This document shows, piece by piece, positions 4,701 to 39,767 of a DNA stretch of 47,416 nt. Position 1 is the stretch's first letter. Each line of letters begins with the position of its first letter. This DNA comes from Bacteroidales bacterium (lineage in GTDB: Bacteria; Bacteroidota; Bacteroidia; Bacteroidales; P3), in contig JAISUE010000020.1 in the NCBI GenBank assembly GCA_031272245.1, forward strand, positions 1 through 47,416, read 5' to 3'. The notes under the pieces are model-generated. The model was not told the DNA's origin and made no database searches. It worked only from the letters and a program-made list of their open reading frames with translations. The translations under genes were made by a program, and so were the position numbers.

Positions 4701-6440
4701 ATGTTAAGAACGCACAACTGCGGTGAATTAAAAATAAAGGATGTAGGATTAAACGTTACACTTTGTGGTTGGCTACACAGATTGCGTAATTTGGGTGGCA
4801 TGACATTTATTGATATTCGTGATAGATATGGAATAACACAGCTTGCATTTGATGAAAAAACTAATAAAACGCTGTGTGATTTTGCACAAACACTCGGACG
4901 GGAATATGTTTTACAAGTGAAAGGAGTTGTAAAAGAACGGAGCAGTAAAAATCCTAAAATGCCTACAGGGGACATAGAGATAGAAGTTAATGAAATAAAA
5001 ATATTAAATAAATCAAAAATTCCTCCTTTTACTATTGAAGACAATACTGATGGTGGTGATGAATTAAGAATGCACTATCGCTATTTGGATTTACGAAGAA
5101 ACATCATAAAATTAAATCTTTCTCTTCGTCATCGTTTATCAATTCTTATAAGGAACTATATGAATGATAATGGGTTTATGGAGATAGAAACACCGTTTTT
5201 AGTTAAATCTACTCCTGAAGGAGCGAGAGATTTTGTTGTCCCTTCAAGGATGAATGTTGGGCAATTTTATGCTTTACCTCAATCTCCACAAACATTCAAA
5301 CAACTTCTTATGGTTGCAGGTTTTGATAAGTATTTTCAGCTTGTAAGATGTTTTCGGGACGAAGATTTACGAGCAGACCGTCAACCGGAATTTACGCAAT
5401 TGGATTGCGAAATGTCGTTTGTTGAACAGGAAGACGTGTTACAGATGTTTGAAGGTTTAATAAAATATCTGTTTGACAAAGAAAAAGGATTACAATTTAA
5501 CAAATTTCCCCGTTTAACGTGGGAAGAGGCAATGCGTTTATATGGTTCCGACAAGCCTGATATTCGTTTTGGAATGAAGTTTGTTGAAATCAATGACGAA
5601 GTTAAAGGTAATGGATTTAGTATTTTTGATAATGCAGAATTAGTTGTTGGTATTTGTGCAAAAGGGTGTGCGAATTATACCCGCAAACAATTAGACGAAT
5701 TAACCGATTTTGTAAAACGTCCGCAAGTAGGAGCAACAGGATTGGTATATATAAAATGTGGTGAAGATGGAATAAAGTCTTCTATTGATAAGTTTTATTC
5801 TGTGGAGAAATTAGAACAAATAGCTCATAAATTTAATGCTGAAAAAGGTGATTTGATTTTAATTCTCGCAGGAGAAAAAGGAAAAACGCGTGCGTCATTA
5901 AGTTGTTTGCGCTTAGAACTTGGAACAAGATTAGGTTTAAGAAATCCTAATACTTTTGCTCCTTTATGGGTTATAGATTTTCCATTATTAGAATGGGATG
6001 AGGAAACACACCGTTTTTATGCTATGCATCATCCGTTTACTGCTCCAAAACCTGAAGATTATGAAAAATTATTTACTCATCCGGCAGAAGTTCGTGCTAA
6101 TGCTTATGACCTTGTAGTTAATGGTGTTGAACTTGGCGGCGGATCTATTCGTATTCACGACAGAAAAATGCAAAATGATATGTTTAAAGCGTTGGGTTTT
6201 TCGGAAGAGGAAGCACAAAATCAATTTGGTTTTCTGTTAGATGCTTTTGAATATGGGGCGCCACCTCATGGAGGAATAGCTTTTGGCTTTGATAGAATTT
6301 GTTCAGTGTTTTCAGGTGTGGAATCTATTAGAGATTTCATTGCTTTTCCCAAAAATAATAATGGAAGAGATGTTATGCTTGATGCTCCTTCTAATATATC
6401 ATTACAACAATTAGATGAATTAAATATAAAATTAAAATAA
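4701..6440 (+). CDS. aspS: Aspartyl-tRNA synthetase
   Basis: [10 protein letters not shown]..., class II aaRS motifs ([44 protein letters not shown]). Confidence 0.96.
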
Positions 6441-6476
6441 ATAATAAAGTAATAAATTAAAAAAACAATTAAGCGT

Positions 6477-7376
6477 ATGACGAAAAGTAGAAATTTATTG
6501 ATGTCTTATGAGGAGCATGCAGTATGTAGTAGCTGGATGTCTGATTACAATGTAGGATTTAAAAAATATATCTTACAACAGGGAGATACATTAAGTACAG
6601 ATTTTGGTAAAGGATATAACAGTATTTGTTTTCTTTTAAAAGGAGATGCAACACTTATGTACAATGAAAGGGAATTTACATTGGAAACAGATACTATGTT
6701 TTTCATTCCTTCTTCCATTCCATGTGATATTATTGCAAATTCCAAAATATTTCTTCTTGTAAACAGTTTCAACAAGCCTGTAAATAATATTGTTGATACT
6801 TGCGAAAGGATGAGTTTGGAAAGTATTGAACCTCCTTTTAATAAAGATACAGATCTGTACAATCCGTTATTACCTATCAGAACAACACTTAAGACTTTCC
6901 TTTTATTGTTAATTCAGATGATAGATGATGGTGTTTATTGTAAACATTTTCATAATGAAGAATTTAATAAATTTTTCTTCATTTTGAGATTTTATTACAC
7001 TAAAGAAGAAATAGGTAATCTATTTGCTCCAATACTTGGACAAAATATGGACTTTAAACATTTGGTTTTGAAATCTTATACTCGTGCAGGAAGTGTTAAA
7101 GAATTGGCAGAAGAATGTGGTTATTCTTTGGCAACATTTAATCGTTTATTTGCTGAAAATTTCCATGATACACCTTATAAATGGATACAAAAAAAGAGAT
7201 TACAACAAGTGATTGCACGTCTTTCAGATAAAGATATTAATATTGCGCAGATTGCAGAGGAATTAGGTTTTTCTTCTCCCGGACATTTAACAGTATTTTG
7301 CAAAGAGTTCCTTCATGTTACACCTTCTCAATTCCGAAAACAGACTGTTAAAGAAAAGTATCACGAACAAGAATAA
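6477..7376 (+). CDS. AraC family transcriptional regulator
   Basis: C-terminal double HTH: VKELAEECGYSLATFNRLFAENFHDTPYKWIQKKRLQQ ... NIAQIAEELGFSSPGHLTVFCKEFLHVTPSQFRK. Confidence 0.92.
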   Translation: MTKSRNLLMSYEEHAVCSSWMSDYNVGFKKYILQQGDTLSTDFGKGYNSICFLLKGDATLMYNEREFTLETDTMFFIPSSIPCDIIANSKIFLLVNSFNKPVNNIVDTCERMSLESIEPPFNKDTDLYNPLLPIRTTLKTFLLLLIQMIDDGVYCKHFHNEEFNKFFFILRFYYTKEEIGNLFAPILGQNMDFKHLVLKSYTRAGSVKELAEECGYSLATFNRLFAENFHDTPYKWIQKKRLQQVIARLSDKDINIAQIAEELGFSSPGHLTVFCKEFLHVTPSQFRKQTVKEKYHEQE

Positions 7377-7395
7377 ATAGAACTTTAAATACGGT

Positions 7396-7430
7396 AAAAG
7401 AGGTTGCCAAAATGGTAGCCTCTTTTTTTT
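7396..7430 (+). terminator. Terminator downstream of the AraC-type gene
   Basis: gaggttgcca/tggtagcctc stem (with G-U pairs) followed by T8. Confidence 0.7.
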
Positions 7431-7599
7431 AATACTTAAAACGGAAAGTGCATTTCTAATTTTATTTTACTTGTTTTTAACGACTTACAAATAGAGTTTC
7501 AAAACGATTTTTGTACATTTTGGCTTAATAGACAAAAGTGAGACTGAAAAATTTTAATAGATATTTAAATTAGGTGCAAAACAATTTAATAGAAAATGC

Positions 7600-28890: not shown

Positions 28891-30336
28891 ATGAAAAAAC
28901 TAAAAGATATATTAAAACACGTAAAATACGAAACATCTATAGGCAATATAGAAAGACAGGTAAGTATTATTTGTTTTGATTCTCGTAAAGTTGAAAAGGA
29001 TTGCATATTTGTTGCTCAACACGGCACTATTATTGATGGACATAAATTTATTGAACAAAGTATTAAAAATGGTGCAAGTGTAATTGTCTGTGAAACTTTA
29101 CCTGATGAATTAAATAATGAAGTAACATATATTAAGGTTAAGAGTTCAGATACTGCTCTTGGTTTTATGGCGGCAAACTATTTTGGTAATCCGTCTACAA
29201 AGCTTAAACTAATAGGTGTAACTGGTACTAATGGAAAAACTACAATTGTAACACTTCTCTATAACCTTTTTATTTGGGCAGGTTATAATGCAGGTTTATT
29301 ATCTACTATCGTAAATAAGATAAATGATAAAACTGTAACAGCAACTCATACCACACCTGATGCATTGGAATTAAATTATCTTCTTGCTCAAATGGTTGAT
29401 GAAGGTTGTGAATATGTTTTTATGGAAGTATCTTCTCATTCAATTGTTCAGCAAAGAATCGCAGGATTAAAATTTTTTGGAGCTGTTTTTACTAATATAA
29501 CTCACGATCATCTGGATTATCATCACACATTTGATAATTATATAAAGGCAAAAAAACTTTTCTTTGATAATTTATCCAAAACAGCTTTTGCTTTAGTTAA
29601 TACTGATGACAAGCATAGTTCTGTTATGATTCAAAATACTAAGGCTCAAACTTACACTTATGCCATTACACATATAGCAGATTTTCATGTTACTATTATG
29701 GAAAACAGTTTTGAAGGACTGATACTTAATTTTAATGGAGTAGATGTTTCTACACGGTTAATAGGAAAATTCAATGCTTCTAATTTGTTAGCTATTTATT
29801 CCGTTTCTATTTTATGTGGATTAGAAAAAGAAAAATCTCTTTTGGGAATTTCTCTTTTGCAATCTGCAGAAGGACGTTTTAATCTTGTTCCTTTGAAAAC
29901 AGGTGCAATGGCTATTGTAGATTATGCACATACTCCTGATGCATTACATAATGTTCTTTTTACAATTAATGAAATTGTACATGGAAAGTCAAATATTATC
30001 TGTGTAGTTGGTTGTGGTGGCAACAGAGATAAGACCAAAAGACCTGAAATGGCGGCAATAGCTCAAAAAGAAAGTAATTATTTAATAATAACTTCTGATA
30101 ATCCTCGCAACGAAGATGCTCAAAAAATTATAAATGACATGATTACAGGATTAAAAACTTACGACAATGTTTTAACTATAGTAGATCGTAAGTCTGCTAT
30201 TAAAACTGCATGTATGCTTGCAAAAAAAGGAGATATTGTGCTTGTTGCTGGTAAAGGTCACGAAAAATATCAGGAGATAGATGGTATAAAATATCATTTT
30301 GATGATAAAGAAGAATTGTTAAACTTTAATTTGTAA
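28891..30336 (+). CDS. murE: UDP-N-acetylmuramoyl-L-alanyl-D-glutamate--2,6-diaminopimelate ligase
   Basis: GVTGTNGKTTIVTL, MEVSSHSIVQQRIAGL, DHLDYH, DNPRNE motif. Confidence 0.95.
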   Translation: MKKLKDILKHVKYETSIGNIERQVSIICFDSRKVEKDCIFVAQHGTIIDGHKFIEQSIKNGASVIVCETLPDELNNEVTYIKVKSSDTALGFMAANYFGNPSTKLKLIGVTGTNGKTTIVTLLYNLFIWAGYNAGLLSTIVNKINDKTVTATHTTPDALELNYLLAQMVDEGCEYVFMEVSSHSIVQQRIAGLKFFGAVFTNITHDHLDYHHTFDNYIKAKKLFFDNLSKTAFALVNTDDKHSSVMIQNTKAQTYTYAITHIADFHVTIMENSFEGLILNFNGVDVSTRLIGKFNASNLLAIYSVSILCGLEKEKSLLGISLLQSAEGRFNLVPLKTGAMAIVDYAHTPDALHNVLFTINEIVHGKSNIICVVGCGGNRDKTKRPEMAAIAQKESNYLIITSDNPRNEDAQKIINDMITGLKTYDNVLTIVDRKSAIKTACMLAKKGDIVLVAGKGHEKYQEIDGIKYHFDDKEELLNFNL

Positions 30337-30339
30337 TAT

Positions 30340-31593
30340 ATGTTGTATTATTTATTTGATTGGCTTTATAGAGATTTTGACATACCATTAACAGGTGTAT
30401 TTCAATATATATCTTTTCGCGCTGCAATGGCTGTTATAACATCTTTATTTATTTCAATAGTTTATGGTAAGAGAATTATCTGTTATTTGAAATTAAAACA
30501 AGTTGGAGAAAATGTACGTGAGTTAGGACTTAAAGGACAAAAGGAAAAGGAAGGAACTCCTACAATGGGCGGATTGATAATTCTTGCAGCTATAATAATT
30601 CCAACACTTTTATTCGCAAAAATCCTTAACATCTACATTATAATTATGCTTGTTACTACAGTATGGCTTGGGCTTTTAGGATTTGCAGACGATTATATAA
30701 AGGTGTTTCGTAAAAACAAGCGTGGGCTTTCCGGTAAAGTTAAAATTATTGGACAAGTTATACTTGGAGCAGTAGTAGGGGGGTTAATTTATTTTCATCC
30801 TGCACTAACAATAAAAGAAAAAGTTGATATAGACACGTATGTTCAAGCACACAATATACAAAATCAGACAAAATATGAAAAAGCTAAAATGGATTTTCAA
30901 CAACAATCTAAACGTTCTACCAAAACTACAATCCCATTTATTAAAAATCATGAATTTGATTATACTTCTCTGGTCAAATGGACAGGTAAAAACTATAAAG
31001 ATTGGGCATGGTTAATCTTTATTCCAATAGTTATTTTTATAATTACAGCAATGTCAAATGGTGCAAACCTTACAGATGGCATAGATGGATTAGCTACAGG
31101 TACATCTGCAATCATAGGGAGTACTCTCGCTATTCTTGCATGGGTATCAGGTAATATTATGTTTGCTCATTATTTGAATATAATGTATATCCCAAATGCA
31201 GGAGAACTTACGATATTTATTGCTGCCTTTATTGGGGCTACAACAGGTTTTCTTTGGTATAATGCTTTTCCTGCTCAAATATTCATGGGAGATACGGGTT
31301 CTCTATCAATAGGAGGTATAATTGCTGTAATTGCCATCCTAATAAGAAAAGAATTTTTGTTACCAATCCTTGCCGGTATCTTCTTAATGGAAAATCTTTC
31401 CGTAATAATTCAGACCTCATATTTCAAATATACAAGACGAAAAACAGGTGTAGGAAAACGTGTTTTTTTAATGTCGCCTCTACACCACCACTATCAGAAA
31501 AAGGGTTATGCAGAGCCAAAAATTGTTCAGAGATTTTTTATTGCAAGCATAATCCTTGCAGTATTAACCATTGTAACATTAAAATTAAGATAA
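30340..31593 (+). CDS. mraY: Phospho-N-acetylmuramoyl-pentapeptide-transferase
   Basis: [49 protein letters not shown]. Confidence 0.96.
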
Positions 31594-31636
31594 TAATAAA
31601 GTAAAAATTATAAATGAATAAATTCAAGAAAAAATA

Positions 31637-32185
31637 ATGAAAAACACAACTTTTTATATTGAAAATACGCAAAATAAAACACTCGCATCAAGAAATTATG
31701 CCTCAATAGCAAACGTTAGAAAAAGAGTTCTGCAACAAATGTTTGAATATAATGGGATACAAAATCACAGAATGCGAGAAGTCGCAACTGTGAAAGGAGT
31801 GAAATTTATTGATGATGCAGCAGCTTTGTGTGCAAATTCTACTTGGTTTATGTTGGAAAGTCTTAATCAAAATGCTATTTGGATAATTGGATGTGAACGT
31901 TATTACGAATTAAAGTCTAAAAATTATGAAGAACTTTCTACTCTTATTCCGTCTGCGAGTGAAAAAGTAAGGATTTTAATCAATATTGGCAATGAAGATA
32001 GACTTAAACCTTTTGTTGGCATTGTACCTACAATGATAAATGTAGCTAATGTTGAAGAAGCTGTCAAAATAGCTTATGAATATGCAAGTAATGACGATGT
32101 TGTTGTATTCTCACCTGCCTGTGGAGAAAAAGAAAATGTAAGTATAAATGCTACAAACTATATTAGGGCTATAAACGAACTTTAA
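31637..32185 (+). CDS. Truncated MurD-like protein (Mur ligase C-terminal domain only), probably non-catalytic
   Basis: 182 aa in the murD slot; VKGVKFIDDAAALCANSTWFMLESL...IWIIGC...VANVEEAVKIAYEYASNDDVVVFSPAC aligns to the MurD C-terminus; no P-loop or UDP-binding domain. Confidence 0.8.
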   Translation: MKNTTFYIENTQNKTLASRNYASIANVRKRVLQQMFEYNGIQNHRMREVATVKGVKFIDDAAALCANSTWFMLESLNQNAIWIIGCERYYELKSKNYEELSTLIPSASEKVRILINIGNEDRLKPFVGIVPTMINVANVEEAVKIAYEYASNDDVVVFSPACGEKENVSINATNYIRAINEL

Positions 32186-33396
32186 TGCAAAAAAATATGG
32201 ACAAGCAAATAAAAACAGGTAGAGCTTTTCTCAAAGGAGACATGGGAATATGGATAATTTTCATATTACTTATGCTTATTTCTTTAGTGGAAGTATATAG
32301 TGCTATAGGAAATGAAGCCTACACTATTGATAAAAGTACTTTTGGACTGTTCATAAAACACTTTATTACGATAGCATTTAGTTTTGTTTGTATTTACACT
32401 TGTTCTCAAATATCATACACAAAAATTTCTAAATTTCTTGCTCCGCTACTTTTAATTTCTATAGGTTTACTTATATTTGTTTTGATTATACATAAAAGAT
32501 GGATACCTATACCCGGTTTTGGAGCATTTCAGCCATCAGAAATGGCAAAGTATATACTTGTATTATATATGGCAAGAGAACTTGTTTTATTGAAAGACAG
32601 GTTGAAAACCAAAGAAGCCTTTATTCGCATAATAATTCCTGTCGGAATAGTATGTGGTTTGATAATACCTCAAAGTGCAACTGCAGCAGGAATAACTTTT
32701 CTATCATGTTTTTTACTTATGATTATTGCAGGAATGCGAAAAAAATATCTTATTAATCTTGCTTTAATTGTGGGAATATCTTTAACTATAGCATTCACTC
32801 TTACATCTAAATATCCGGAACAAATGAAAAATATTCCGGGAATGGATAGAATTACTGAAGGATATGAACGAATTTTTCCTCAAGAATTGAACATACAAGT
32901 TAAAAATGCAAGATTAGCTCTTGGTACAGCAGGAGTGATGGGAAAAGGAATAGGAAATTCTCAATTAGCTAACTTTCAACCTGAAGCACATAATGACTAT
33001 ATTTATACTATTATTTTAGAAGAAGGAGGATTTCTTTTTGGCTTCGTTGTAATGCTTCTTTATATGATTTTACTTTATAGATGCTTTATGATTGCTAAAA
33101 AGTCAAAAGGAATGTTTGGGGCTTTCATTGCGATAGGAGTAGGGTTAGTTATTATAATACAGTCTTTGATAAATATGTTTGTAGGTTCTGGATTTAGAAT
33201 AGTTACAGGACAGACTTTGCCATTCATAAGTAAAGGAGGAACTTCATATATGTTTGCATGTATTGCTTTAGGTGTTGTCCTTAACATTTCATCACAAGGA
33301 GAAAAGAAAGAATCTTATGATGAAGATATGGAAGAAGTTAATGAAAATAGTAGTTTAGATAATTTAATTCAAACTAAAGAGGAAGAAAATAGGTAG
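32185..33396 (+). CDS. ftsW: SEDS family cell division protein FtsW
   Basis: Multi-TM; GAFQPSEMAKYILVLYMARELV, GKGIGNSQ, FISKGGTSYM; TAATG overlap with preceding ORF. Confidence 0.93.
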   Translation: MQKNMDKQIKTGRAFLKGDMGIWIIFILLMLISLVEVYSAIGNEAYTIDKSTFGLFIKHFITIAFSFVCIYTCSQISYTKISKFLAPLLLISIGLLIFVLIIHKRWIPIPGFGAFQPSEMAKYILVLYMARELVLLKDRLKTKEAFIRIIIPVGIVCGLIIPQSATAAGITFLSCFLLMIIAGMRKKYLINLALIVGISLTIAFTLTSKYPEQMKNIPGMDRITEGYERIFPQELNIQVKNARLALGTAGVMGKGIGNSQLANFQPEAHNDYIYTIILEEGGFLFGFVVMLLYMILLYRCFMIAKKSKGMFGAFIAIGVGLVIIIQSLINMFVGSGFRIVTGQTLPFISKGGTSYMFACIALGVVLNISSQGEKKESYDEDMEEVNENSSLDNLIQTKEEENR

Positions 33397-33476: not shown

Positions 33477-34577
33477 ATGATAGAAAATAGAATATTAGAC
33501 ATAAAAAAAGTAATTATTAGTGGAGGAGGCACAGGAGGACATATTTTTCCTGCGATTGCTATTGCTAATGAATTAAAAAATAAATATGATTGTGAAATAC
33601 TCTTTATTGGAGCAAATGACAGGATGGAGATGCAAAAAGTACCGGAAGCAGGTTATAAAATAGAAGGGTTAAACATCATAGGTTTTGATAGACATAATAT
33701 TTTGAAAAATATAAAAGTGTTAATTTTATTCATAAGAAGTCTGAGAAAAGCATCCAAAATCATTAAAGAATTTTGTCCTCAAATTGTGATAGGGGTAGGA
33801 GGATATGCTTCTTCTGCAGCTCTTTATGCAGCAACTCGTTTAAACATACCGACTTTAATTCAAGAACAAAATTCATTACCCGGAATAACTAATAGGGTAC
33901 TATCCAAAAAAGTAGATATTATTTGTGTAGCATATCCAAATATGCAAAAATGGTTTCCAAAAAATAAGATTGTTTTATGTGGTAATCCTGTAAGAAATAC
34001 AATTAAAAATCTAACTGATCAAATTGAAAACAACAAATGCGATAGAAAATCGGTATTAGCTGTCGGTGGTTCATTAGGAGCATTAACAATTAATGAGAGT
34101 ATTGCTGAAAATATTGATTATTTCGTACAAAATAATATTTATTTAATATGGCAAACAGGTAAGAATTATTATAACAAAGCTAAAAAATTAGTTGAAGATT
34201 TAGAGGGAAATAACATAAAAGTATATGAATTTATTCGCGATATTGATAAAGCATATAATGAAGCTGACTTTATTATATCACGAGCAGGCGCTTTAGCAAT
34301 AGCAGAATTAGCTATCGTTGGTAAACCATGTTTACTTGTTCCTTCTCCAAATGTAGCAGAAGATCATCAAACAAAAAACGCACTTGCACTTGCCGACAAA
34401 AAAGCAGCTATTTTAGTAAGAGACAACGATGCGAGAACTAAACTTATACCTGAACTTGACCGTATAATTAATGACAAAGAACTTTGCACAACATTGGAAA
34501 AGAACTTAAAAAAAATTGCAATGCCGAATGCTTTAGAAAAAATAGTAAATGAAATAGAAAAAATAGTATTGAAATAA
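33477..34577 (+). CDS. murG: UDP-N-acetylglucosamine--N-acetylmuramyl-(pentapeptide) pyrophosphoryl-undecaprenol GlcNAc transferase
   Basis: ISGGGTGGHIFPAIAIANEL, GVGGYASSAAL, QEQNSLPGITNRVL, EDHQTKNALAL. Confidence 0.96.
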   Translation: MIENRILDIKKVIISGGGTGGHIFPAIAIANELKNKYDCEILFIGANDRMEMQKVPEAGYKIEGLNIIGFDRHNILKNIKVLILFIRSLRKASKIIKEFCPQIVIGVGGYASSAALYAATRLNIPTLIQEQNSLPGITNRVLSKKVDIICVAYPNMQKWFPKNKIVLCGNPVRNTIKNLTDQIENNKCDRKSVLAVGGSLGALTINESIAENIDYFVQNNIYLIWQTGKNYYNKAKKLVEDLEGNNIKVYEFIRDIDKAYNEADFIISRAGALAIAELAIVGKPCLLVPSPNVAEDHQTKNALALADKKAAILVRDNDARTKLIPELDRIINDKELCTTLEKNLKKIAMPNALEKIVNEIEKIVLK

Positions 34578-34588
34578 AAAGTAGAAAT

Positions 34589-35938
34589 ATGAACAAAAAT
34601 ATTTATTTTATTGGCATAGGTGGTATAGGAATGAGTGCATTAGCCAGATATTTTGCTCACAAAGGTTATAATATTTTTGGTTATGATCGCACAAAAACGG
34701 ATTTGACCGAACAACTTTCTTCCGAAGGAATAAAAATAACCTATGAAGATGATATAAATATTTTACCACAGGAACTTGATTTAGCTATTTATACTCCTGC
34801 TATTCACTTTGAAGACAGCCATATTCTCACCGAATTACACAGAAGAAATACTCCAATTTATAAACGTTCACAGATTTTAGGTCTCATTTCTGAAGATAAA
34901 AAGACACTCGCTGTTGCCGGAACACATGGAAAAACTACTATATCAGGTATGATAGCTCATATTTTATTTCAGTCACCTATTAGTTGCACTGCGTTATTAG
35001 GAGGAATTTCAAAAAATTATGATACTAATTTATTATTTAATCATAATGAAAAAAGTAAATATTTAGTTGTGGAAGCTGACGAATATGATCGTTCTTTTCT
35101 TACTCTTCATCCGTTTAATTCTGTTATATCTGCTGTAGATGCAGATCATTTAGATATTTACAACACAAAAGAAAATCTGCTTTCTGCTTTTCAACAATTT
35201 GCTTCTCAGACAAACATGAAAGAGGGAACATTATTCGTAAATGAAAAGATAGCCAATTTATTTGAAGGAAATATAGAAACATATTCATTAAATAACATTG
35301 AAACGGATTATTATGCGTGGAATATCCGTGTTTATAAGGGAAATTATTACTTTGATTTTCATACACCAAATAAAGTTTATTTTGATATGTGCCTCTCTTA
35401 TCCTGGACTGCACAATATAGAAAACGCTATAGTTGCTATGGGCGTATGTCTTAAATGTGGAATAGATGAAGAATCTTTAAGAAAGGGCTTACAGTCATTC
35501 AATGGTATGAAGAGACGTTTTGATGTGAGAGTGAAAAATAATAATACAATATATATAGATGATTATGCTCATCACCCTGCTGAAATAGAAACCTGTATCA
35601 AATCTATTAGACATCTTTACCCTGATAAACGGATAACAGGAATTTTTCAGCCGCATCTTTATTCCCGTACTCGCGATTTAAAAGATGAATTTATTACATC
35701 ATTGGAATTATTGGATGAAATAATATTATTGGACATTTATCCTGCAAGAGAACAGCCAATAGAAGGAATAACATCTCATATACTATTCAGTAATATAAAA
35801 AAAATGAATAAATATTACGTAACGAAAGACCAGTTATTGGAATTAATACCTGCCTTAAAGCCTCAGATATTACTTACCATTGGAGCAGGAGATATAGATA
35901 AATTAGTTAAACCTATAGAGGATATATTGCAACAATGA
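34589..35938 (+). CDS. murC: UDP-N-acetylmuramate--L-alanine ligase
   Basis: FIGIGGIGMSALARYF, VAGTHGKTTISGM, VEADEYDRSFL, DDYAHHPAEI, FQPHLYSRT. Confidence 0.96.
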   Translation: MNKNIYFIGIGGIGMSALARYFAHKGYNIFGYDRTKTDLTEQLSSEGIKITYEDDINILPQELDLAIYTPAIHFEDSHILTELHRRNTPIYKRSQILGLISEDKKTLAVAGTHGKTTISGMIAHILFQSPISCTALLGGISKNYDTNLLFNHNEKSKYLVVEADEYDRSFLTLHPFNSVISAVDADHLDIYNTKENLLSAFQQFASQTNMKEGTLFVNEKIANLFEGNIETYSLNNIETDYYAWNIRVYKGNYYFDFHTPNKVYFDMCLSYPGLHNIENAIVAMGVCLKCGIDEESLRKGLQSFNGMKRRFDVRVKNNNTIYIDDYAHHPAEIETCIKSIRHLYPDKRITGIFQPHLYSRTRDLKDEFITSLELLDEIILLDIYPAREQPIEGITSHILFSNIKKMNKYYVTKDQLLELIPALKPQILLTIGAGDIDKLVKPIEDILQQ

Positions 35939-38132: not shown

Positions 38133-39767
38133 ATGGATAATAATTTAAATAATAATGCTCCTATTTTAAATATGGATGCACCTAAACCACAATCAAATTA
38201 TATAAAGGTTATAGGAGTAGGAGGATGTGGGACAAATATTGCAAACTATCTTTTTAAGATGGATTCTGATAAAGTAGATTTTATAGTTTGTGATACCAAT
38301 GCTAGACATCTTGCTAATAGTCCTATTCCTGTAAAAATTCAATTAGGTGATAGCGGACTTGGAGCTGGATTAGACCCTGATGTTGCTCGCAAAGCCGCAG
38401 AAAACCAAAAAGAAGAAATCAAACAAGCAATAGGTAATAATGTACGTTTACTTTTTATTACTGCTGGACTTGGCAAAGGTACAGGAACAGGTGCTGCACC
38501 TGTTATTGCTAAAATTGCTAAAGAGATGGAACAAGAAATAGGTGAAGATATATTAGTTATAGCTATTGTTACTACACCTCTTAAAGATGAAGGCATAAAA
38601 TATATAGAACGTGCTAATGAAGGACTTGCTGCTTTACGAGATATAGTAAATACATCTATGCCTATTGATAATAATAAACTTGATGAATATAATGATGATG
38701 ATATAGATGAAGACGAAGCTTATGAAAAGGTAGATAATGTACTTGTAACATGGGTTAAGTGTATTTATGATATGATGACATCGGATGCAAGACAAAATAC
38801 AGATTTTAATGATATAAAACGTGTATTAAAAAAAGCTCGCAACGCACAGGTTGGTGTTGGATATGGAAGTGGGGAAGACAGAGCAAGACAAGCCCTTGCA
38901 GAAGCTATTAGTTCAGAATTTATAAATGATTTGGATTATAAGGAAGCAAAAAATGTATTGGTATCTATATCTTCTTCGCAAGAAGCTAAACTTAAAAGAT
39001 CTGAAAGCAGGTATATTCTTGATTACGTAACTAACACTTTAACAAGTTCCGAAGAAACAATCCCAAGTAAAAATACTAACGATAGTACACTTGGTGATAA
39101 ATTAAAGGTGGCGATTATAATAGCTGGATTTAGTGATGAAAAGTTAAATACAAAAAATATCAATATCAACAAAACCGAACCACTGTCTCCTATTATTCCT
39201 TCTGAAATTCATACAATGTCTTTGCCTCCCCTTCCTGTTAAATCTGCAAACGAGATAACAGACCCTGATACACTCTTTGTACCCGAAGAAAAGCTTCAAG
39301 AAAAATTAAACAGTTATGATACTATTAATGAAAACACTAAACCATTATACTCTGATATGGAAACTGTATCTTTTGAAAAAGAAGCATATAATGTTACCTC
39401 TCAAATGGAAATTGCAGATATTGGGCTAAAAGAAAACATAAATACAAATTTACAGGATGAAAATTTTAACGAAATAGTTATTGCTTCACCAAATTTATCC
39501 TCGCTTGATGAAGAATCTAAGGAAGCTTATACTGCAAAAATAGCAGAACGTATAGCCAAAATAAGAGATATATTTAATGATCCTCAAAAAATGAAAGAAT
39601 ATGAACGAAAGTCTCCTGATGAACTTAAAGCATATTTGGGAGAGGATGATTTATCTGATAAAAATAATATGGTTAACGTATCTGAAAAATCAACTATAGC
39701 AAACTGTAATGCAAAAGGTGAAAAAGATATAAATACTACTGCTTTTCTTCATGATATTCCTGATTAA
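38133..39767 (+). CDS. ftsZ: Cell division protein FtsZ, divergent (GKGTGTG tubulin signature)
   Basis: KVIGVGGCGTNIANYLF, FITAGLGKGTGTGAAPVIAKIA, NTDFNDIKRVL, C-terminal AFLHDIPD-like tail; directly after ftsA. Confidence 0.93.
   Translation: MDNNLNNNAPILNMDAPKPQSNYIKVIGVGGCGTNIANYLFKMDSDKVDFIVCDTNARHLANSPIPVKIQLGDSGLGAGLDPDVARKAAENQKEEIKQAIGNNVRLLFITAGLGKGTGTGAAPVIAKIAKEMEQEIGEDILVIAIVTTPLKDEGIKYIERANEGLAALRDIVNTSMPIDNNKLDEYNDDDIDEDEAYEKVDNVLVTWVKCIYDMMTSDARQNTDFNDIKRVLKKARNAQVGVGYGSGEDRARQALAEAISSEFINDLDYKEAKNVLVSISSSQEAKLKRSESRYILDYVTNTLTSSEETIPSKNTNDSTLGDKLKVAIIIAGFSDEKLNTKNININKTEPLSPIIPSEIHTMSLPPLPVKSANEITDPDTLFVPEEKLQEKLNSYDTINENTKPLYSDMETVSFEKEAYNVTSQMEIADIGLKENINTNLQDENFNEIVIASPNLSSLDEESKEAYTAKIAERIAKIRDIFNDPQKMKEYERKSPDELKAYLGEDDLSDKNNMVNVSEKSTIANCNAKGEKDINTTAFLHDIPD

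Follow-up and report, generated by a model that had tools for sequence, protein, structure and literature searches.

A recurrent, conserved MurD C-terminal domain occupies the murD slot of the dcw cluster in Bacteroidales

Introduction

MurD is an essential cell-wall enzyme and a much-targeted antibiotic target, and its gene normally sits between mraY and ftsW in the dcw cluster. In the contig of a Bacteroidales bacterium analysed here (JAISUE010000020.1, assembly GCA_031272245.1; its full 47,416 nucleotides are referred to as the window), this slot holds only a 182-amino-acid (aa) open reading frame (ORF), hereafter the stub. A sequence-only reading had described the stub as an eroded piece of MurD and had placed the active ligase elsewhere in the genome. 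Two questions follow from this locus: which protein carries out the MurD step, and why has one part of MurD stayed behind?

Results

The murD slot encodes a lone MurD C-terminal domain

The stub and its neighbours are arranged as follows.

28891-30336, + strand: murE, intact (ORF and profile match)
30340-31593, + strand: mraY, intact; used as anchor for synteny and for a species-like tree
31594-31636, + strand: spacer of 43 bp from mraY to the stub, too small for the lost MurD domains; relatives have a like arrangement
31637-32185, + strand: the stub, a stand-alone MurD C-terminal domain of 182 aa without N-terminal or ATPase domain (ORF, profile, PDB and fold matches)
32185-33396, + strand: ftsW, intact; begins within the stop codon of the stub (TAATG)
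33477-34577, + strand: murG, intact by reading
34589-35938, + strand: murC, intact (ORF and profile match)

The layout given in the sequence-only reading was confirmed: the ORF is open, it is the only one between mraY and ftsW, and its TAA (32183-32185) shares one base with the ftsW ATG at 32185. Against the NCBIfam murD profile TIGR01087 the stub aligned to columns 275-419 of 441 (E = 1e-17) with 64.4 bits, below the curated cut-off of 211.95, and its match to Pfam Mur_ligase_C (E = 1.7e-5, 26.1 bits) fell just short of the gathering score of 28.4. All sequence matches in the PDB were C-terminal regions of MurD, a domain that comprises residues 300-437 in E. coli (PMC4816537). An AF2 model built from 40 aligned relatives had a mean pLDDT of 83.6 and exceeded 90 at most positions from 40 onward, and solved MurDs were its best Foldseek matches (E 8e-11, TM-score 0.58-0.67 by query length).

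The stub shares the dcw slot and the C-terminal fold of MurD, from which it derives by deletion, but it is missing both the N-terminal UDP-binding domain and the central P-loop (GxxGKT) domain, and the catalytic-site residues of its C-terminal domain are relaxed. In the window both MurD family motifs are changed, NDSKATN to DDAAALCAN and SPACASFD to SPACGEKE, as had been noticed from the sequence. Because the N-terminal and P-loop domains are lost, D-Glu ligase activity of the stub appears implausible; a lone MurD C-terminal domain would not be able to ligate. Further along the window (38133-39767), FtsZ reads as a 544-aa protein with the GTP-binding signature GLGKGTGTGAAP and a long C-terminal extension.

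A MurL-MurD2 fusion is the probable replacement ligase

A profile search of the source genome (G000; 1.80 Mb, 86 contigs, 96% complete) gave seven Mur_ligase_M matches. Besides the MurE and MurC of the window these were FolC, an Mpl-like ligase, two MurF-type ligases and an 848-aa protein. The two MurF-type ligases (L002:1201-2502 and L004:1207-3339, on contigs C24 and C10) comprise one stand-alone protein and one in an ORF that runs on into an alanine racemase-like domain. The 848-aa protein contains a full-length MurD-type ligase.

L003:19-2565 (contig C12, about 4990-7540): MurL-MurD2 fusion, 848 aa

Residues 3-336 of the fusion matched MurL over columns 68-406 of 447 (E = 3e-66) with 223.7 bits, below that profile's cut-off of 700, which is specific to Xanthomonadales. 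Residues 394-845 matched TIGR01087 over columns 1-440 of 441 (295.9 bits). The specificity of Xanthomonas oryzae MurD2 for L-Glu is set by Glu197 and Arg358, where E. coli MurD has Asp182 and Lys348 (PMC8788868); the equivalent sites of the fusion read Glu (NIFQEHL) and Arg (GGMDRG). By motif scan this E/R pair was present in 49 of 61 MurD2 locus entries, some places being counted twice as loci overlap, and the D/K pair in 51 of 52 full-length MurDs of the dcw cluster. No match to the glutamate racemase MurI was found in the source genome by profile search; the search for a D-Glu source was confined to MurI.

The E/R pair together with the lack of a MurI match makes it most likely that the published MurL/MurD2 route replaces MurI and MurD, and with high confidence, judging from sequence, the fusion would carry out the D-Glu step. 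The proposal that the active step is encoded elsewhere was thus borne out. A relocated canonical murD was not found, as the fusion is the sole other MurD-type ligase in the genome, and a split MurD was rejected as well: there is no orphan N-terminal half, and the other Mur_ligase_M matches are all otherwise assigned. Like X. oryzae (PMC8788868), this genome combines a MurL-like epimerase with a MurD2-like ligase that has the E/R pair, and it lacks MurI; here, however, the two form one fused protein, far from the dcw cluster, in a Bacteroidales host. MurL/MurD2 has been described for some Proteobacteria and actinobacteria (including PMC8788868), and Bacteroidota were not named in the MurL/MurD2 literature examined, a search with most of the subscription literature outside it.

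The stub is present in all examined members of its family and recurs across Bacteroidales

In all 25 genomes of the same Bacteroidales family the dcw slot holds a short ORF of about 160-182 aa, placed between mraY and ftsW in every genome with both flanks readable. A MurD2-type ligase was found in 25/25 of these genomes and MurL in 24/25, the lone exception being 78% complete, and MurI over cut-off in none of the 25. The fusion occurs in many family members but not all; elsewhere murL and murD2 are adjacent or apart. MurL was detected in 2 of 242 genomes of a class-wide sample and in 112 of 343 Bacteroidales genomes sampled (about 50 families); among 80 MurL-positive genomes, MurI over cut-off was found in none.

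Slot length across these 80 genomes and the family was bimodal: the ORF was either about 443-461 aa long (typically about 447) or of stub size, at 174-199 aa with a median of 182, and the single in-between length sits at a contig end; four MurL-positive genomes (G285, G339, G389, G420) had no dcw match and were left out of this inspection. Both states are present within six families. A MraY-anchored survey found the same stub arrangement in named Bacteroidales metagenome-assembled genomes (MAGs) from rumen, cecum, faeces and groundwater, and MurL was present in all 13 named stub genomes tested. The genomes compared are mostly MAGs, and the recurrence of the stub in dozens of independent ones excludes an assembly deletion. 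Nothing relevant on a MurD domain remnant or on MurL in Bacteroidales was found in the literature searched, which did not take in most subscription papers.

An independent stub also occurs in a Flavobacteriaceae MAG, CSMAG_274 (L122, 4550-5095), with nearly intact motifs (NDSRAVN, SPACASYD). It clusters with Flavobacteriaceae in both trees described below, and MurL was not found in this MAG, which may be incomplete.

The same truncation apparently arose repeatedly

On a MraY tree of 127 rows, a 'quick' build with weak deep branches, the stub label required 16 state changes, at least nine of them forced by well-supported branches. In the C-domain tree several stubs are neighbours of the full-length MurD from the same family (for example f117 and f171), and an AU test on the C-domain rejected a single stub clade (p = 0.0065). 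Both this test and the MraY topology reject a single origin, and the same truncation apparently arose at least nine separate times. Most of the 16 changes are read as losses, because regain of two domains is unlikely; some transfer of stubs between lineages is possible.

The stub protein is under purifying selection

We estimated dN/dS by the Nei-Gojobori method. For stub pairs at dS 0.4-1.8 it was mostly 0.01-0.07, with exceptions of 0.13 (one pair) and 0.33 (one distant pair), and in close pairs it resembled that of mraY and ftsW. Among stubs of the window's genus, evolution is faster (omega 0.15-0.38, with dS close to saturation), and ftsW is fast there as well (0.28 in the one measurable pair). 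The stub is very probably a functional protein. The term 'eroded' is therefore not upheld: the length and the start of the stub mark a recurrent, selectively maintained form.

Constraint is uneven along the domain. The Asp equivalent to E. coli D317 is present in 53/53 stubs, one Ile is also invariant and one Trp is 98% conserved, and the H301 and R302 equivalents are His in 75% and Arg in 72% (otherwise mostly Lys). The catalytic K, T, K, S and F positions of the C-domain are retained in 43, 49, 26, 58 and 51% of the 53 stubs. By comparison, 45 full-length MurDs of MurL-positive genomes show 100% conservation at the P-loop and at K198, K355 and S425. This rejects a dead full-length MurD in such genomes, which apparently keep a working enzyme beside MurD2. 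An intact-looking D-Glu-type MurD coexists with MurL/MurD2, and without MurI over cut-off, in G561, G595 and G304, for example.

One genome retains the stub with no detectable MurC or MurD-type ligase

Genome G039 (98% complete, 10 contigs) has a stub of 179-190 aa in its mraY-ftsW slot, and MurL, MurI, MurD2, MurC and MurD were all undetectable in it. Its dcw order runs murG, a 252-aa ORF, ftsA and ftsZ, with no murC; its one remaining MurC-like protein resembles the Mpl-like ligase of the window genome and reaches neither the MurC nor the Mpl cut-off. If this protein is indeed no MurC, the stub outlasts even the loss of the MurC and MurD steps. The genome (loci L362 and L363) does have MurE, MraY, MurG, FtsW, FtsA, FtsZ and the Mpl-like ligase, and the organism may depend on salvaged L-Ala-D-Glu-DAP tripeptide.

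Stubs begin at a conserved internal methionine of MurD

Of 139 full-length Bacteroidia MurDs, 127 have a Met, encoded by ATG in every case, nine residues before the GxHN motif, and counting from this Met to the C-terminus gives exactly 182 aa in most copies. Stubs start at this position, and many open with the same M[TN][LI]E.LA.QG. RNA near the conserved ATG was less structured than near ATGs that lie in frame elsewhere in these genes (paired p = 1e-12; p = 3e-6 after GC correction). Synonymous A/T use over the eight codons from the conserved ATG was the maximum of the blocks tested (+0.15), compared with +0.08 before it and +0.06 at the true start; one neighbouring block had -0.15, so regional effects are large. 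These signals are suggestive only: they fit a pre-existing internal start, and the Met could also have a structural reason. An internal translation start in full-length murD genes is possible, if somewhat doubtful.

Discussion

We consider it reasonably likely that the murD gene of the dcw cluster lost its UDP-binding and ATPase domains by a clean deletion that left the C-terminal domain in place, and that a like deletion occurred many times, each product starting at the position of the conserved Met. Repeated deletion to the same product, together with purifying selection, argues for a function of the C-domain that is separable from ligation; this second, non-catalytic function would have been kept once the ligase was replaced or lost. 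Most likely the C-domain would act as a docking or scaffold element in a cytoplasmic assembly of Mur enzymes, MraY, MurG and FtsW. The position of the stub beside MraY, FtsW and MurG, its relaxed ligand residues and its retained fold fit a protein-protein role. In Thermotoga, MurG binds MurD, MurE and MurF and has been proposed as a Mur scaffold (PMC6420597). In the MurG-centred complexes of Thermotoga and Bordetella the Mur ligases that bind MurG, MurD included, are full enzymes, whereas here a lone domain would have the putative docking role. From synteny, the lost ligase motifs and this literature on Mur complexes, we put docking forward tentatively, as a plausible candidate for the role of the stub.

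The main rival is that the stub senses a ligand, binding a nucleotide or UDP-MurNAc-peptide/glutamate and regulating precursor flow or FtsW/MraY. D317 and H301 of E. coli MurD presumably contact ADP, and the equivalent Asp is invariant in stubs and the His mostly retained. Most stubs also keep the equivalent of Arg302, which in E. coli MurD lies near the sulfate or alpha-phosphate (PMC4816537), and no more than about half of all stubs have lost ligand-site residues. However, stubs lack the part of the nucleotide site that the central domain supplies, and on the glutamate/phosphate side the Lys, Thr, Ser and Phe vary. We regard a sensor as unlikely.

The stub, being a Mur ligase C-domain, might instead work in trans, completing or regulating MurD2, MurC or MurE by domain complementation; the C-domain moves relative to the rest of the enzyme during catalysis (PMC4816537). 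Yet the MurD2, MurC, MurE, MurF and Mpl-like ligase of this genome have C-domains of their own, G039 keeps its stub with neither MurD2 nor MurC detectable, and about half of the stubs, or more, no longer have the K348/S415-type residues. We judge such a subunit to be quite improbable.

For the retention of the stub, the sequence-only reading had offered either a repurposed non-catalytic protein, which is the likeliest role, or a translational-coupling leader for ftsW, which is not supported as the sole reason. An ORF kept only to bring ribosomes to ftsW, its protein being irrelevant, would account for the TAATG overlap in the window and for the short gaps in many relatives. It would leave unexplained an amino-acid constraint equal to that on mraY and ftsW, the conserved fold and the invariant Asp; moreover, the spacing to the ftsW match varies between an overlap and hundreds of bases, and several genomes have gaps of 50 to 300 bases. 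A mere leader is very unlikely. A recent, functionless pseudogene on its way to loss, to which the two changed motifs of the window genome and its 38-50% identity to same-genus stubs might point, is highly improbable given an open ORF in every family member, at least nine independent events with the same product and dN/dS far below 1.

Returning to the reading that we favour, a function of the C-domain apart from ligation, the shared start point suggests how the short protein could have come about. Bacteroidota murD may encode both the ligase and, from the conserved internal ATG, a stand-alone C-terminal domain; wherever the ligase was replaced or lost, only the short product would then have been kept. 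This is a speculative possibility that we hold with some doubt; if true, the short product has a role of its own in wall synthesis or division. More broadly, the MurL/MurD2 route is extended to a large share of Bacteroidales, including its one-protein form, and the C-terminal domain of MurD possibly has a job besides ligation, in a natural experiment that these bacteria have repeated at least nine times.
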